Below are positions 5,087 through 23,619 of a stretch of 35,368 bases of DNA, one piece after another. Origin of the DNA: a virus; IMG/VR virus record IMGVR_UViG_3300031784_000106, positions 1 to 35,368 of that record; one strand, written 5' to 3'. The stretch's first letter is position 1. Every line of letters starts with the position of its first letter. Below the pieces are notes generated by a model that was not told the DNA's origin, did not search any database, and saw only the letters and a list, made by a program, of their open reading frames with translations. The position numbers and the translations under genes were made by a program.

Positions 5087-5135
5087 GACGTCGCCTGTGG
5101 ATAACCTGTGGATAACCTGTGTGACGCTTATCACA
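5087..5135. promoter_or_regulatory. GACGTC, two DnaA boxes, CRP-like site in series
   Basis: GACGTC 5087-5092; perfect TGTGGATAA at 5096-5104 and 5107-5115 (11 bp apart); TGTGACGCTTATCACA at 5120-5135. The most compact copy of the shared spacer design. Confidence 0.65.
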
Positions 5136-5814: not shown

Positions 5815-5855
5815 GACGTCGCGTTCGGGTGTGTCTGGGGATAACCTGTGGATAA
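5815..5855. promoter_or_regulatory. Composite box plus DnaA-box pair
   Basis: GACGTC 5815-5820, TTCGGGTGTGTC 5824-5835, TGGGGATAA 5836-5844 (one change) and perfect TGTGGATAA 5847-5855, 11 bp apart. Confidence 0.6.
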
Positions 5856-5910
5856 CTATGCCCTACTCACCAGTAACCTATATAAAATATCTTTAAGAAG
5901 GCTATTTTTC

Positions 5911-8968: not shown

Positions 8969-8999
8969 TAAATTAACAACAACAAAAAGGAGAAAACTC

Positions 9000-10013
9000 A
9001 TGGCACATGAACTAGAAACACAAAATGGCGTAGCAAGTTTTGCCTCATTTCGTGAACCTGCTTGGCATGGATTGGGTACCGTATTCACAGAGGAAAAAAC
9101 CACAAAAGAAATGTTAGATTTGGCTAACCTTTCTAATTGGAATGTTCGTCTTGAGGATTTGGAAACCCCTACACATCTCACAAGCGATAAGAACTATCAG
9201 TATGTTCTTCGCACTAACCCAACAGATAACTCTCAGACCGACATTCTTGGTGTCGTTGGTGAGCGTTACCATGTAATGCAGAATGAGGATTTATTTTCAT
9301 TCGGTGATAACATTCTTGATGGTGGTGGTCGTTGGGAAACGGCTGGCTCAATTAAGGGTGGTCGTGTCGTATTCGGTGCGTTAGCACTAGAGCGTGAAAC
9401 AATTCTTGACCCTAATGGTGTTGCAGACAAGGTAAAAACTTATTTGCTCATCAACACATCACATGATGGCTCAATCGCTATTCAAGCAAGCATTACACCT
9501 GTTCGTGTTGTGTGCGCTAACACTCTCAATCTTGCACTTAACACTACCCGTAAAAAGGGTGGCGTAAAGCAATCATTCAAGATTCGTCACACACAAACTG
9601 CAAGCGGTAAGGTTGCGGTTGCTCGTGAAACTCTTGGTCTTGCTCATAAGTACATGGACTCTTTTGACCTTATGGCTAATGCTATGATTCAACAAGAGGT
9701 TTCTGCACAAATGTTTAACGACATTATTCTTGCTGCATACCCAAAGCCTGAAAAGGATTCTAAGGGTGCTTTCAAGAAGTGGGAAAACAAGGTTGATGTT
9801 ATTAACGACATCTACACAGGCGAGTTTAATGGAATGATTGCTGGTAACGCATGGGGTGCTTTCAATGCACTAACAGAGCGTTTAGATTGGCACCGTTCTG
9901 CTCGTGGTGGTTCTAACGAATCTATCCTTGCAAGCGCAAGCGGATTTGACCCTGCTATCAACGCAGAAAAGAATCGCTTACTAAAAATTGTGCGTGAACT
10001 AACAAACGCATAA
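9000..10013 (+). CDS. DUF932 / TIGR03299 phage-plasmid protein
   Basis: 337 residues. The opening MAHELETQNGVASFASFREP and AWHGLGTVF, then VGERYHVMQNEDLFSFGDN and the VRVVCANTLNLAL segment are hallmarks of the DUF932 family found on phages and plasmids. Its biochemical role is not established. Start at 9000 is fixed by AAAAAGGAG; an in-frame ATG at 8940 lies upstream of the promoter core and is rejected. It is the longest left-arm gene and has the best damage-type promoter. Codon use (many CGT, GGT, CTT) looks more optimised than in the micro-genes, suggesting high expression. Confidence 0.9.
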   Translation: MAHELETQNGVASFASFREPAWHGLGTVFTEEKTTKEMLDLANLSNWNVRLEDLETPTHLTSDKNYQYVLRTNPTDNSQTDILGVVGERYHVMQNEDLFSFGDNILDGGGRWETAGSIKGGRVVFGALALERETILDPNGVADKVKTYLLINTSHDGSIAIQASITPVRVVCANTLNLALNTTRKKGGVKQSFKIRHTQTASGKVAVARETLGLAHKYMDSFDLMANAMIQQEVSAQMFNDIILAAYPKPEKDSKGAFKKWENKVDVINDIYTGEFNGMIAGNAWGAFNALTERLDWHRSARGGSNESILASASGFDPAINAEKNRLLKIVRELTNA

Positions 10014-10035
10014 TAAAAAAAATAAATAAATGCCA

Positions 10036-10065
10036 CCTGAGCAAGTGGATGCAAAAACTGCTCAC
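10036..10065 (+). repeat. Operon-end hairpin, GAGCA...TGCTC family
   Basis: CCTGAGCAAG ... AAAAACTGCTCAC, ending two bases before the tRNA. Confidence 0.5.
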
Positions 10066-10067
10066 AT

Positions 10068-10141
10068 GGTCCGTTAGAATAGTTGGTTAGTTCGCCACCC
10101 TGTCACGGTGGAGGTCATGGGTTCAAGTCCCATACGGATCG
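10068..10141 (+). tRNA. tRNA-Asp (GTC)
   Basis: GGTCCGT/ACGGATC acceptor, CCACC-CTGTCAC-GGTGG anticodon arm, GGTTCAAGT T-loop region. Anticodon GTC. CCA is not encoded. No separate promoter seen; likely read from P8. Confidence 0.95.
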
Positions 10142-10180
10142 CAAGTAAATAAATATGCAACGCAATGTATAAAAATTTGC

Positions 10181-13279: not shown

Positions 13280-13328
13280 AAATCATATCAAATCGGACAT
13301 ATTAGACAAACCACATTTCCAGAATAAG

Positions 13329-13398
13329 ATTACGATCATCGATTTATTTTCCCCAGAATTAGATTACGAAGGACGAATTCTTTTCCCCGTACCAAACC
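13329..13398. repeat. Two ATTACGA...TTTTCCCC repeats
   Basis: ATTACGA at 13329-13335 and 13363-13369, each followed by TTTTCCCC; spacing 34 bp, like the 33 bp at 10228. Placed directly upstream of a promoter, as there. Confidence 0.6.
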
Positions 13399-13419
13399 TT
13401 ATACCATATCAAACCTTAT

Positions 13420-13449
13420 TTGTCAAACCTTTGTATTCGGTGTTATAAT
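13420..13449 (+). promoter_or_regulatory. Sigma-70-like promoter, leaderless
   Basis: TTGTCA, 18 bases, TATAAT, six bases, ATG at 13456. Confidence 0.65.
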
Positions 13450-13455
13450 TGGGAT

Positions 13456-13686
13456 ATGCCAAGAGATCATTTTTCTCAGATGTATCAGAACAAATCTACT
13501 AGACATGATCAACCTCATGACTCTATAGGGTTTGATAAAGCCATAGGTGCTTTAACTGGTATGTTATACTCTATTGTTACTCTTAAGGCTTTCTTTCCTA
13601 AGTCTCCCCCGCTGCAAATGAATAACTATCCTGCTAAGGACACCGCAGGTGGGGACAACGTCTATACACAACTAACGCTCTTCTAA
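13456..13686 (+). CDS. 76-residue hypothetical protein
   Basis: MPRDHFSQMYQNKSTRHDQP, then a hydrophobic helix (ALTGMLYSIVTLKAFF) and a Pro-rich tail. Leaderless start; the upstream in-frame ATG at 13420 is in the promoter. Flanked on both sides by ATTACGA repeats, so it may be regulated by whatever binds them. Possibly membrane-associated. Confidence 0.65.
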   Translation: MPRDHFSQMYQNKSTRHDQPHDSIGFDKAIGALTGMLYSIVTLKAFFPKSPPLQMNNYPAKDTAGGDNVYTQLTLF

Positions 13687-13692
13687 AATAAG

Positions 13693-13790
13693 ATTACGAA
13701 GGGGCAAAATTTTTCCCCGTACCAGGGCTTTTTAAAATAAGATTACGATGGAGCATTTTTCTTCCCCGTACCAGGCCTTTTTTGCCAGGG
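13693..13790. repeat. Two long ATTACGA...CCCCGTACCAGG repeats
   Basis: Copies begin AAAATAAGATTACGA and share CCCCGTACCAGG plus a T-run; ATTACGA at 13693 and 13742. The first copy holds the near-palindrome GGGGCAAAATTTTTCCCC. Confidence 0.65.
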
Positions 13791-13963
13791 GATCAAGATG
13801 AAACCCACAATCCCCTATAGTATATACACCATAACAAACCACTATAAATTATTTCCTGATTTCTAAAACTTTTCCAAACCTTTATATATTTTTATAAAGG
13901 TTTTCTTTATTTTCTGAGCAAATTCGAACAAATTTTATATGAGGTTTTGCACAGTAAATGGGC

Positions 13964-13992
13964 TTGACAAACCATGTTTCATGGTATATAAT
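13964..13992 (+). promoter_or_regulatory. Perfect consensus promoter with palindromic operator
   Basis: TTGACA, 17 bases, TATAAT. The spacer is nearly all a palindrome, ACCATG-TTT-CATGGT. No open reading frame follows for over 200 bases. Confidence 0.7.
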
Positions 13993-14015
13993 GCCCAAAC
14001 CCTGTATACAATGGT

Positions 14016-14044
14016 TTGACAATAGCGAGCATATGTGGTATAAG
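14016..14044 (+). promoter_or_regulatory. Second tandem promoter
   Basis: TTGACA, 17 bases, TATAAG, 52 bases after the first; also without a gene directly downstream. Confidence 0.5.
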
Positions 14045-14183
14045 GTTTGGGGATATAAGGTTTGGATATGGAGGTTTGGCCGTTAGGGATTACGAAGCCA
14101 TCTATAAAAGCGCTCTATACTCCACTATCCTCCACTTCACTCCACTTCTAGACTGTCTAATAATATAATCAGTAAGATTAATC

Positions 14184-14203
14184 TGTGGATAACTTGTGGA
14201 TAA
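14184..14203 (-). promoter_or_regulatory. Pair of perfect DnaA boxes, 11 bp apart
   Basis: TGTGGATAA at 14184-14192 and 14195-14203, followed within ten bases by the -10 TATAAT (14212-14217) of the gene at 14224. Confidence 0.65.
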
Positions 14204-14223
14204 CTATCTGATATAATAATCCA

Positions 14224-14349
14224 ATGAACAAATTAGAGTCATCCTATAGCAAGTTTATGGGCTATCGAATAGCATGTACCCAATGCAATCAGTTATATAT
14301 CAAACCAAATGATGACCCATTTATATGTCTTACCTGTTTAGTCAAATAG
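14224..14349 (+). CDS. 41-residue zinc-ribbon micro-protein
   Basis: CTQC at 18-21 and CLTC at 35-38, a four-Cys zinc ribbon. Leaderless: TATAAT ends six bases before ATG. The promoter overlaps the DnaA-box pair, so DnaA could control it. Converges on the GIY-YIG gene. Confidence 0.65.
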   Translation: MNKLESSYSKFMGYRIACTQCNQLYIKPNDDPFICLTCLVK

Positions 14350-14373
14350 ACTTATCCTAAAAACCAGGGGATA

Positions 14374-17109: not shown

Positions 17110-17299
17110 AATCTTACCATTACGATGGATAGGTAATTTTCTTGGTGGCTATGCTGGTAATCATTTAGTTAAGTGTTTTGATTATGATGAAGATGGTAAG
17201 CATGGCTTTGCTTATAAATACCACGCAAAAATGTGGAAGTATCTTAATAAGCCATATGAGTGGTGGGGAACCTATTATATTGTTAAGGTAAATAAATGA
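17057..17299 (+). CDS. 80-residue hypothetical protein
   Basis: Aromatic-rich (LRWIGNFLGGYAGNHLVKCF; YKYHAKMWKYLNKPYEWWGT). The first ~17 residues overlap the preceding gene in another frame, so the true start may be later, but no other ATG fits. Overlaps the luciferase-like gene by four bases (ATGA). Aromatic/Gly pattern is unusual; role unknown. Confidence 0.6.
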   Translation: MEEFDGFLSNSKKIQKTRILPLRWIGNFLGGYAGNHLVKCFDYDEDGKHGFAYKYHAKMWKYLNKPYEWWGTYYIVKVNK

Positions 17300-18072
17300 A
17301 TGTTTACTGGTTTGGAAGAACCAGAAACAATAATCTTTCTGAGATTTCTCTAGAGTTAGAAGAGTCTGGATTTAATGGTATTCTTTTACCATATGGTGCT
17401 GATGTTGGAGACTATTTCGTACAGATAGCGAGATCACTTAAAAAGGATCAAAAGGTTACATATATTGTCGCAGTTAGACCGTATACAATTTCTCCACAAA
17501 ATCTTGCAATGATAATTAAGTCATTAAACTCTATAGATACTGGCAGGGTTTGGATTAATTTTGTTTCAGGACAAATTTTAGATGAAGAAAAAAGTATGGG
17601 CGGAATTATAGGTGAGATAAATGACACATCTAGCCTTTATGAAAGAAGAGAATATTTAAAAAACTATATACCAATCTTTTTTGATTTTTGTAAAAAGTTT
17701 AATATAGACACAAAGATATGCATATCTGGTAAAGGCGATGACATGAATACACTTGTTGAAAACTATGGAGACTACAGTTTTGCAGCATACCAGTCACATA
17801 TTGAAGTTGCTAAGTACAAAAAAATATCTAAACCAAGAGTCTTATCTATTTTTCCACTAATAGAAGATGATGAAGAAAAGTTTAATAAATTAAAGCATAG
17901 CAAGGAACTCGGATCTGATATAAGATTAACAACTACTCTAGAACTAAAAGAAATAATTAATGAGTTAAAGTTAGATGGAATTGAAGGCATAATGTTTTAT
18001 TGCTATTGGCCTGAAGAATATAGAATTAAGATAGTTAATTTTGTTAAAGATAATAAAAATCTTTTTATTTGA
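17296..18072 (+). CDS. Luciferase-like monooxygenase, paralogue 1
   Basis: 258 residues. VAVRPYTISPQNLAMI at 58-73 and GRVWINFVSG at 83-92 are the signature of the flavin-dependent luciferase-like (LLM, SsuD/alkanesulfonate monooxygenase) family: the RPxxxSP strand and the GRxxxNxxxG flavin-phosphate loop. About 80-100 residues shorter than typical SsuD-type enzymes, so insertion segments are missing. Needs a partner flavin reductase, none of which is seen. Coupled to the preceding gene. Paralogues lie at 22834 and 28274. Substrate unknown. Confidence 0.8.
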   Translation: MNVYWFGRTRNNNLSEISLELEESGFNGILLPYGADVGDYFVQIARSLKKDQKVTYIVAVRPYTISPQNLAMIIKSLNSIDTGRVWINFVSGQILDEEKSMGGIIGEINDTSSLYERREYLKNYIPIFFDFCKKFNIDTKICISGKGDDMNTLVENYGDYSFAAYQSHIEVAKYKKISKPRVLSIFPLIEDDEEKFNKLKHSKELGSDIRLTTTLELKEIINELKLDGIEGIMFYCYWPEEYRIKIVNFVKDNKNLFI

Positions 18073-20261: not shown

Positions 20262-20390
20262 TTACTTTTTAGGATGCTTTGCTTCGTATGGTGCAATCTT
20301 AGACTTAATGCGACCATCTTTATATAATCTAACAATCCATCCATCTTTGATCTGAACTGGATTAAACGCTGCTGCTTTTTTCTTTGGCAT
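20262..20390 (-). CDS. 42-residue basic micro-protein
   Basis: MPKKKAAAFNPVQIKDGWIV, then RLYKDGRIKSKIA. Lys-rich. Starts two bases after the previous stop, with AAGGA as ribosome site, and ends three bases before the tRNA cluster. The longer frame through the tRNAs in another phase is an artefact. Confidence 0.6.
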   Translation of the reverse strand: MPKKKAAAFNPVQIKDGWIVRLYKDGRIKSKIAPYEAKHPKK

Positions 20391-20392
20391 AA

Positions 20393-20857
20393 TTAGTCCT
20401 TAAATAAGTTAGTAACTCTTGTTTGCTTTGAATAATCTTTTGCTGAAAAGAAGATTGATTCTGTTTTTGTAACAGGAATGCAGTTAGGAACTGGGTTACC
20501 ATCTGCTCCTGGCTTCATCCCTCTTTGTACATAGCCTTCCCAGCACGGATTAGCCTTTCCAATTGATGAGTCATACATAGCCATAGCAACTTCTGAATCC
20601 ATTGAGTGATTATTCATATCTGCTTTCTCCGCATCCTTGTACATCATGCCAATGCTATATGCAGTTGCTTCCCATGTACCGTCTTCTTCTTCGTAAATTC
20701 TAACAGACATTGCTGGATTTTCTGGTGGCATTGAAACCAAAGCATATTCTGACCCAGGTGTACCAAGTGTCCCACCCTCAGTCATAATGTGCTCTATAAC
20801 GCCATGTACAAACCCCTCAGAGGTTGATCCCATAACAAAGTCACCTTCTTTTAACAT
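20393..20857 (-). CDS. 154-residue phage protein with CWxGYxQxGMK motif
   Basis: N-terminal beta domain (MLKEGDFVMGSTSEGFVHGV, later YALVSMPPENPAMSVRIYEE), then CWEGYVQRGMKPGADGNPVP, a motif with a following Asn-Cys-Ile-Pro that I know from phage structural-region or capsid-maturation-associated proteins. Exact role unknown. Leaderless: TATACT ends six bases before ATG. Divergent from the oxygenase at 20900. Confidence 0.7.
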   Translation of the reverse strand: MLKEGDFVMGSTSEGFVHGVIEHIMTEGGTLGTPGSEYALVSMPPENPAMSVRIYEEEDGTWEATAYSIGMMYKDAEKADMNNHSMDSEVAMAMYDSSIGKANPCWEGYVQRGMKPGADGNPVPNCIPVTKTESIFFSAKDYSKQTRVTNLFKD

Positions 20858-22540: not shown

Positions 22541-22837
22541 TTACTTTACTTGGTTAGTCTTTCCTCCACCAGATGACTTCTTTGCAGGAGCCTTCTTAGC
22601 GGTCTTCTTTACTACCTTGGCCGACTTAACAGCCTTGTCTACCTCATCTACTGATGGCATCTTTCCAAATGCCAAGTCATTAGGGTTGGCTGCTCTTAAT
22701 ACTACGGGCACGAGTGCTCCAAGTAGTGAGTATGCCAGTGTCTGTGGATCTGTTACACCAGAAGCATACATTGCTGTTGCTGCTCCAAGTACCGATCTTC
22801 CATATGACGCTAGTGCGTTTTTGATTTGTTTATTCAT
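22541..22837 (-). CDS. 98-residue membrane protein with Lys/Gly tail
   Basis: N-terminal half has hydrophobic Ala/Leu-rich segments (VLGAATAMYASGV; LAYSLLGALVPVVLRAAN). The C-terminal third is KVVKKTAKKAPAKKSSGGGK, almost the same style as the end of the endolysin at 29884 (TAKKSSGGGGK). Holin-like in size, but not proven. Strong ribosome site GGAGG; its ATG overlaps the stop of the luciferase-like gene. Confidence 0.7.
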   Translation of the reverse strand: MNKQIKNALASYGRSVLGAATAMYASGVTDPQTLAYSLLGALVPVVLRAANPNDLAFGKMPSVDEVDKAVKSAKVVKKTAKKAPAKKSSGGGKTNQVK

Positions 22838-23619
22838 TGTTTTCCTCCTAGGATATTTGTTTCTTTGTTAGTAAAGTAACTAACAAAACTTAGTATATGC
22901 TTTTTTTCTATATAGTCATTGGGTTCTGCTTCATCCATTAAAATATTGCTTATATTTTTATTTTTTAATTCATTTAATAATGACTCAAACTCTTCAAAGG
23001 TAAAGTGCTGGATATCGCTTCTTGTATTTTTTTCTATTAATGGGACAAGTTCTTCTTTTGTTTTTCTTATTACTGGAGATATGTATATCATTATCTTGCT
23101 TGGATCATTAATATTAAAATTGTTTTGTCTGTATGACTGATATGGGATGATTACTTTATCTCCAGAAACCTTTTCTAGTAAAACAGGATTAGTAACAGAA
23201 ACATAAAAGTTTGGTGTTTCTCCAGCAGTATTTTTTAAAACCTTTAGATATTCTACTAAGTTTTCAGATCTTTCTAGGTTTGAAGATAGGTCATTTATAT
23301 TTCCCTGAATTCCACCTACCTGCTTATCGTATTCTGATATCCACCCAGTTATAAAATTAATTATTATCCTGTTTTCTGATATTTTTTGAAATGAATTATT
23401 TATCATAGATAGGTATTGTGGAGAAATAACATGAGGTCTTATTGCAACCATGTATTTTATTTTTTTATTTACATCTATTGCATTCGCTATTTTTACAAAT
23501 TGATCGTCACTGTAAAAAGAATACACTAAAAGAACTCCATAAAAACCAGAATCTTCTAACTCTAAAGATATTTCTTTTATATCGTAAGAGTTTGATCTTT
23601 CAAACCAAAAAAAATTCAT
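22834..23619 (-). CDS. Luciferase-like monooxygenase, paralogue 2
   Basis: 261 residues. VAIRPHVISPQYLSMI at 58-73 and RIIINFITG at 84-92 mirror paralogue 1 at the same positions. The first 60 residues (FWFERSNSYDIKEISLELED) align well with MNVYWFGRTRNNNLSEISLE, so these two are recent paralogues. GR is replaced by NR before the flavin loop (S81-E82-N83-R84). Overlaps both neighbours by four bases. Confidence 0.75.
   Translation of the reverse strand: MNFFWFERSNSYDIKEISLELEDSGFYGVLLVYSFYSDDQFVKIANAIDVNKKIKYMVAIRPHVISPQYLSMINNSFQKISENRIIINFITGWISEYDKQVGGIQGNINDLSSNLERSENLVEYLKVLKNTAGETPNFYVSVTNPVLLEKVSGDKVIIPYQSYRQNNFNINDPSKIMIYISPVIRKTKEELVPLIEKNTRSDIQHFTFEEFESLLNELKNKNISNILMDEAEPNDYIEKKHILSFVSYFTNKETNILGGKQ

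Follow-up and report, generated by a model that had tools for sequence, protein, structure and literature searches.

The locus at positions 13687-14373 raises the question of what a strong promoter does in front of DNA that holds no conserved gene. No other ORF-free gap in the window, i.e., in the whole stretch of 35,368 nucleotides analysed, is as long, and an earlier note had proposed that the transcript primes replication, acts as a regulatory RNA, or is held off by a repressor bound at a palindrome. The features of the locus are presented in Table 1.

Table 1. Features of the promoter-core locus, in window coordinates.
Feature	Position	Strand	Basis
Four same-direction upstream units, ATTACGA-N~11-(T)TTTCCCC	13328..13768 (13329, 13363, 13693, 13742)	+	sequence
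AT-rich hairpin AAACCTTTATA-TATTTT-TATAAAGGTTT with T-rich tail	13876..13903	+	window and about seven relatives
Promoter P1, TTGACA-N17-TATAAT	13964..13992 (TTGACA 13964-13969; TATAAT 13987-13992)	+	sequence; kept in relatives
GGTTTG/CAAACC repeats	13968..14078 (CAAACC 13968, 13996; GGTTTG 14013, 14044, 14059, 14073)	.	sequence
Palindrome ACCATG-TTT-CATGGT in the P1 spacer	13971..13985	.	sequence
Promoter P2, TTGACA-N17-TATAAG, 11/12	14016..14044	+	sequence
Conserved core	14088..14183	+	comparison of relatives
GATTACGA, core start	14088-14095	+	
CTCCACT repeats (three)	14120, 14130, 14140	+	
AT-rich strip of the core	14153-14169	+	
CAGTAAGATT, 3' part of the core	14170-14179	+	
Tandem DnaA boxes TGTGGATAAC, 11 bp apart	14184..14204 (14184, 14195)	+	exact match
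41-aa ORF, CxxC...CxxC (zinc-ribbon-like)	14224..14349	+	outside the conserved element

Source genome

The window, taken from a viral record, covers part of a freshwater actinophage genome of ~110 kb. Its DUF932 protein (8985-10013) has 51-52% identity to proteins of the ~130 kb Streptomyces cluster BE phages, and the window's phage is related to them; the host would be a freshwater actinobacterium. Contigs near-identical or related to the window are found in IMG/VR, some of them 90-120 kb long. A complete relative carries genes for Pol III alpha, a DnaB-like helicase, DnaG primase, RecA, a portal protein and a prohead protease, and no DnaA domain was found among its proteins. Elsewhere in the window, an inverted repeat whose copies are ~70% alike (17341-17525 and 23390-23574) spans two opposite-strand genes (17296-18072, + strand; 22834-23619, - strand). 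These genes are probably paralogues, the first of which looks luciferase-like by eye.

Promoters and flanking sequence

The perfect promoter reported in the earlier note is present with its 17-nt spacer, and RNA synthesis from P1 would start near position 13999. Four perfect promoters with a spacing of 16-18 are found in the window against 0.09 expected, far more than chance would give, and complete relatives (~110 kb genomes) have only 2-4 each. Among the 103 relatives with enough upstream sequence for the check, a P1-type promoter upstream of the single-copy core matches at 12/12 positions in 82 and at 11/12 in 19, which upholds the view of a special promoter region under selection that lacks a conserved gene. 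The second TTGACA promoter is likewise there, and many relatives have one ~50 bp past P1. The AT-rich DNA was also recovered, with 76% at 13820-13945 and 77% at 14153-14183.

The palindrome in the P1 spacer exists, but its proposed role as an operator for a repressor does not extend to the relatives: only four of 54 distinct spacers have arms of 6 bp, and a conserved operator was rejected. In the four distinct spacers that carry it (the window, L133, L022 and L083 are among the carriers), pairing is kept with changed letters, e.g., ACCTTG/CAAGGT and ACCCTG/CAGGGT. These compensating changes lie upstream of the RNA start, and the inverted repeat could be a DNA hairpin or a product of chance among close relatives.

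The AT-rich hairpin ahead of P1 is a possible terminator that would insulate the locus against upstream transcripts. A comparable hairpin precedes P1 in 15 of 98 loci versus 26 of 300 control windows, a weak difference, and a general terminator before P1 was rejected given that only a subset of relatives has one.

A conserved single-copy core

Downstream of the promoters lies a core whose parts come in this order: ATTACGA, GCC, TATAAAA-GCTC, three CTCCACT repeats, an AT-rich strip, CAGTAA(G/C)ATT and then usually two TGTGGATAA boxes. Positions 14088-14206 show 76-92% identity in most of 36 relatives' loci, and the similarity stops abruptly at the DnaA boxes; these loci were found via a neighbouring protein and not via the core pattern, and present the same conservation. 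A scan with the core pattern retrieved at least 120 viral contigs, and the core is single-copy in 18 of 19 large contigs. The CTCCAC copies are exactly 10 bp apart throughout 108 distinct variants, although the pattern itself requires two CTCCAC copies and CAGTAA(G/C)ATT, so that these letters are conserved in part by design of the pattern. Since the sequences are kin, counts across relatives are not independent.

When the pattern was applied to 257 Gb of bacterial and archaeal genomes, it gave three chance matches only, in unrelated phyla, and the idea that the element is part of bacterial genomes was rejected. Among cultured phages, no blastn match at 1e-5 and no comparable stretch was found. 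A literature search found no description of the core, which we regard as a previously undescribed non-coding element.

The distances from the P1 TTGACA to the core fall at about 84-86, 93-97, 103-106, 115-117, 123-128 and 133-138, a period of ~10 bp. This periodicity has p ~0.001-0.003 after clustering at 75% identity (34 clusters) and is weaker at coarser clustering, with p = 0.04 at 65% and p = 0.3 (lost) at 60%. This spacing and the conservation of P1 indicate that the promoter is part of the element.

The segment between promoter and core (~166 bp) holds 3.8 GGTTTG and 1.0 CAAACC, versus ~0.08 and ~0.10 per 200 bp genome-wide; the GGTTTG density is roughly 50 times the genome's, and in five of five genomes the density of these repeats is highest at this site. 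Upstream of the core, the ATTACGA unit of the relatives occurs at ~4.8 per kb on the + strand versus 0.01 on the - strand (89 loci). Phasing of the upstream WTTACGA units to the core was also considered, and rejected as weak.

The pair of DnaA boxes announced in the earlier note is exact in both copies. Three such tandem pairs are present in the window versus none in 300 shuffles, again well beyond chance. Of 108 relatives, 81 carry two or more boxes no further than 50 nt from the core and 25 carry none, so the boxes are optional to the element.

Coding and RNA readings of the locus

Contrary to the statement that no open frame follows the promoter, a 41-aa ORF begins shortly past the DnaA boxes, on the same strand and downstream of P1. 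P1 could thus be its ordinary promoter, with a long leader. Such a role is highly improbable, given that the ORF has matches in only 16 of about 156 related loci, whereas promoter and core are nearly universal, and that it has a TATAAT of its own at 14212-14217, 6 nt ahead of its start, from which it is apparently expressed as a leaderless gene. Expression as a regulatory small RNA from P1/P2, also envisaged in the earlier note, is a little less remote and still very unlikely. The strong promoter without a conserved gene and the conserved sequence downstream speak for it. Nevertheless, RNAalifold on the 108 variants yielded no consensus pair (0.0 kcal/mol), the RNA at 13999-14207 folds no better than shuffles (z-score +0.48), and Rfam gave no match for the region, so a structured RNA was rejected. 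In addition, the 5' part of such an RNA would differ by tens of bases among relatives, and the helical phasing of promoter and core suits DNA. Since no RNA structure is conserved and the palindrome is not conserved either, the element would work as DNA; the helical phasing, direct repeats and optional boxes fit a protein-DNA assembly.

A 76-aa ORF at 13456-13686 starts 6 nt after a TATAAT, an arrangement of the leaderless type. It has matches in 26 related loci and belongs to no PHROG or Pfam family.

Position at the edge of the early region

The element forms the end of a ~13 kb early region, in which small genes point rightward and which resembles the long terminal repeat of cluster BE phages. 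In the complete relatives, the stretch from ~13.6 kb upstream to 0.7 kb downstream of the core contains 8 of 9, 10 of 13, 7 of 7, 2 of 3 and 10 of 12 DnaA boxes, as well as nearly all CRP-like TGTGAN6TCACA sites. In two genomes of ~110 kb (G001 and G002), the GACGTC palindrome is confined to the early region, where all 11 and all 9 copies stand at 0.9-12.9 kb upstream of the core.

Other repeats occur in this region of the window. Tandem DnaA-box pairs like the one at 14184 are found in early-region gaps at 1031-1053, 5094-5116 and 5834-5856, two of them preceding CRP-like TGTGAN6TCACA sites and TGTCAG(A/T)CCCC promoter-like motifs. Near the left end of the early region, at 899-978, there are three tandem 26-bp repeats (ATGACCAGTCTTGGGTGCATAGGTAC...). 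Three genomes (G008, G001 and G002) have another large stretch free of genes, about -13.2 to -12.2 kb from the core. It sits where the early region has its far end and may represent the opposite end of a terminal repeat.

By analogy with the phages compared below, we infer that the edge of the early region is the junction between a long terminal repeat and the rest of the genome. The ends of the contigs show no pile-up at the core start, which is a weak test given that assemblies collapse the repeat. Five contig ends lie 52-83 bp upstream of CAGTAA, inside the core or at its start, at no single position and with no downstream counterpart; assembly breaks within shared sequence account for this pattern, and contig ends were rejected as a proxy for physical ends.

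Comparison with cluster BE phages and T5

Terminal repeats of ~11 kb are described for BE1 phages (PMC5764925), and of 11-12 kb in a study of satellites and helpers (PMC10690885). In five BE phages (Navo, Evy, Samisti12, MindFlayer and Yaboi; Stanwilliamsviridae), the deposited DTR (10.6-12.4 kb) ends in a non-coding gap of ~1.3 kb that follows the DUF932 gene, just before (C/T)ATTACACA (YATTACACA). Four to six same-direction TTTACGA units precede the DTR end, DnaA boxes lie about 69 and 93 bp past it, so that the (C/T)ATTAC motif and the box pair fall within 100 bp, and the gap holds a TTGACA promoter. The freshwater phages present the same layout, with same-direction TTACGA units upstream and a DnaA pair within ~110 bp downstream. 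However, the pair is inverted in the BE phages and tandem in the freshwater phages, the BE promoter lies at the far end of the gap, and BE phages are without the CTCCACT array, CAGTAAGATT or the GGTTTG array. The core gave no blastn match to the BE regions, and the CTCCACT array is absent from the BE alignments.

In the terminal-repeat gap of the BE phages (Navo L202, about 20360-20510), a hairpin GTCCCTGGGGGCC...GGCCTCTCCCCAGGGACC is conserved downstream of the TTGACA promoter and is likely an RNA hairpin. The satellites MiniFlayer and MulchRoom were considered as carriers of a helper origin and rejected, given that they shared no above-chance stretch with the gap of Navo, the phage used for the comparison in place of their own helpers.

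In the record of phage T5 (Demerecviridae), the left terminal repeat is annotated as first-step-transfer DNA, with an injection stop signal (iss) at 9140-10149, which a 2026 paper describes as consisting of repeats, inverted repeats and DnaA boxes (PMC13250531). Like the freshwater element, the iss lies in a non-coding gap with many same-direction repeats (in T5, eight copies of TGTGCAAATCCGAC) and tandem DnaA-like sites 11 bp apart. In T5 this gap closes a ~10 kb terminal repeat of early genes on its inner side, a position that the freshwater element would share. The two differ in that there is no homology beyond the DnaA boxes, the repeat unit is unrelated, and the DnaA sites are inside the T5 terminal repeat, whereas in the freshwater phages they follow the core. 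A single-strand interruption is annotated in the T5 record. A weak match (E 0.003) was found between genes of T5-like Proteus phages.

Given that the element closes a DTR-like early region, as the corresponding gaps do in the BE phages and T5, its position suggests a boundary or injection function, which the earlier note had not considered.

Function of the element

The comparisons show a conserved, directional element that is present in single copy, keeps helical phasing and forms the end of a region with regulatory motifs of its own. Its most likely role is either to control the entry of DNA or the processing of the genome at the early-region edge, or to initiate DNA replication. We tentatively favour, at somewhat less than an even chance, a control element at the terminal-repeat boundary that would work like the iss of T5. 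This reading is preferred because the core is conserved and occurs once per genome, behind a perfect promoter that is kept and yet rare genome-wide; because the promoter-core distance is periodic, the CTCCACT spacing is exact and RNA structure is missing; because most DnaA boxes, almost every CRP-like site and, in two genomes, every GACGTC palindrome fall in the early region; and because the BE DTR end and the T5 iss occupy matching gaps with repeats and DnaA sites. Counting against it, the CTCCACT array is absent from both BE phages and T5, hence the link is one of layout and not of homology. The DnaA sites also lie differently in T5, 25 of 108 relatives have no DnaA boxes next to the core, contig ends are not enriched at the core start, and the periodicity weakens at 65% and 60% clustering. 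Moreover, the function of the T5 iss, and the part of DnaA in it, are themselves only proposed.

Under this boundary reading, the element would mark the junction between the long terminal repeat, as the first-entering DNA, and the remaining genome. The same-direction repeats and the phased CTCCACT and GGTTTG sites would bind phage or host proteins, while host DnaA would bind the tandem boxes. Host RNA polymerase starting from P1/P2 would transcribe across the junction into the remaining genome, which would link early expression to the entry or processing of the rest, and the RNA would not need to encode anything.

A replication origin, as suggested in the earlier note, is the main rival; we consider it well short of an even chance and less probable than the boundary reading. 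Transcription from P1/P2 would open or prime the DNA, the CTCCACT repeats would bind a phage initiator, the AT-rich strip would melt, and host DnaA at the tandem boxes would help to load the phage DnaB helicase and primase. Iteron-type origins, such as the phage lambda ori and those of iteron plasmids, combine direct repeats, an AT-rich strip, DnaA boxes and transcription through the site. The element, present once per genome, has iteron-like repeats, an AT-rich strip and DnaA boxes in this order downstream of strong promoters, in a phage with its own Pol III alpha, DnaB-like helicase, DnaG primase and RecA and without a DnaA domain. It differs from such origins in having no known adjacent initiator gene, in lying at the edge of the early region, and in that its DnaA boxes are dispensable, being absent in part of the relatives and present at several other early-region sites. 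Furthermore, the AT-rich strip is only ~30 bp long and the replication genes are far from the element. GC skew shows no switch there; it tracks gene direction and was set aside as an uninformative origin marker, and a switch is not strictly required in lytic phages.

A site for terminase recognition or concatemer cutting, which would define the ends of the terminal repeat with the small terminase subunit bound to the phased CTCCACT repeats, is unlikely, and like a small RNA it ranks below both the boundary reading and an origin. The BE DTR ends at the equivalent position, the layout is directional, and phased repeats would suit a ring-shaped binding protein, but the conserved promoter and the DnaA boxes would be left unexplained and contig ends are not enriched at a fixed position.

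Non-coding phage DNA that is so conserved and so precisely spaced is uncommon, tRNA genes aside. On a more far-reaching reading, which we hold to be less probable than not by a clear measure, the element may be a DNA switch shared across the lineage of large actinophages and placed where first-entering DNA gives way to later DNA. A single nucleoprotein complex would then assemble on the strong host promoter, the phased repeats and the boxes for host DnaA, and would couple early transcription to the entry, replication or end-processing of the rest; the same plan would have arisen with unrelated sequence in T5-like phages. The element recurs in abundant, mostly uncultured freshwater actinophages, and the related Streptomyces BE phages grow in the laboratory. 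Hence, what such a gap of repeats and DnaA boxes does where a terminal repeat ends, a question since T5, becomes testable in a second, unrelated system.
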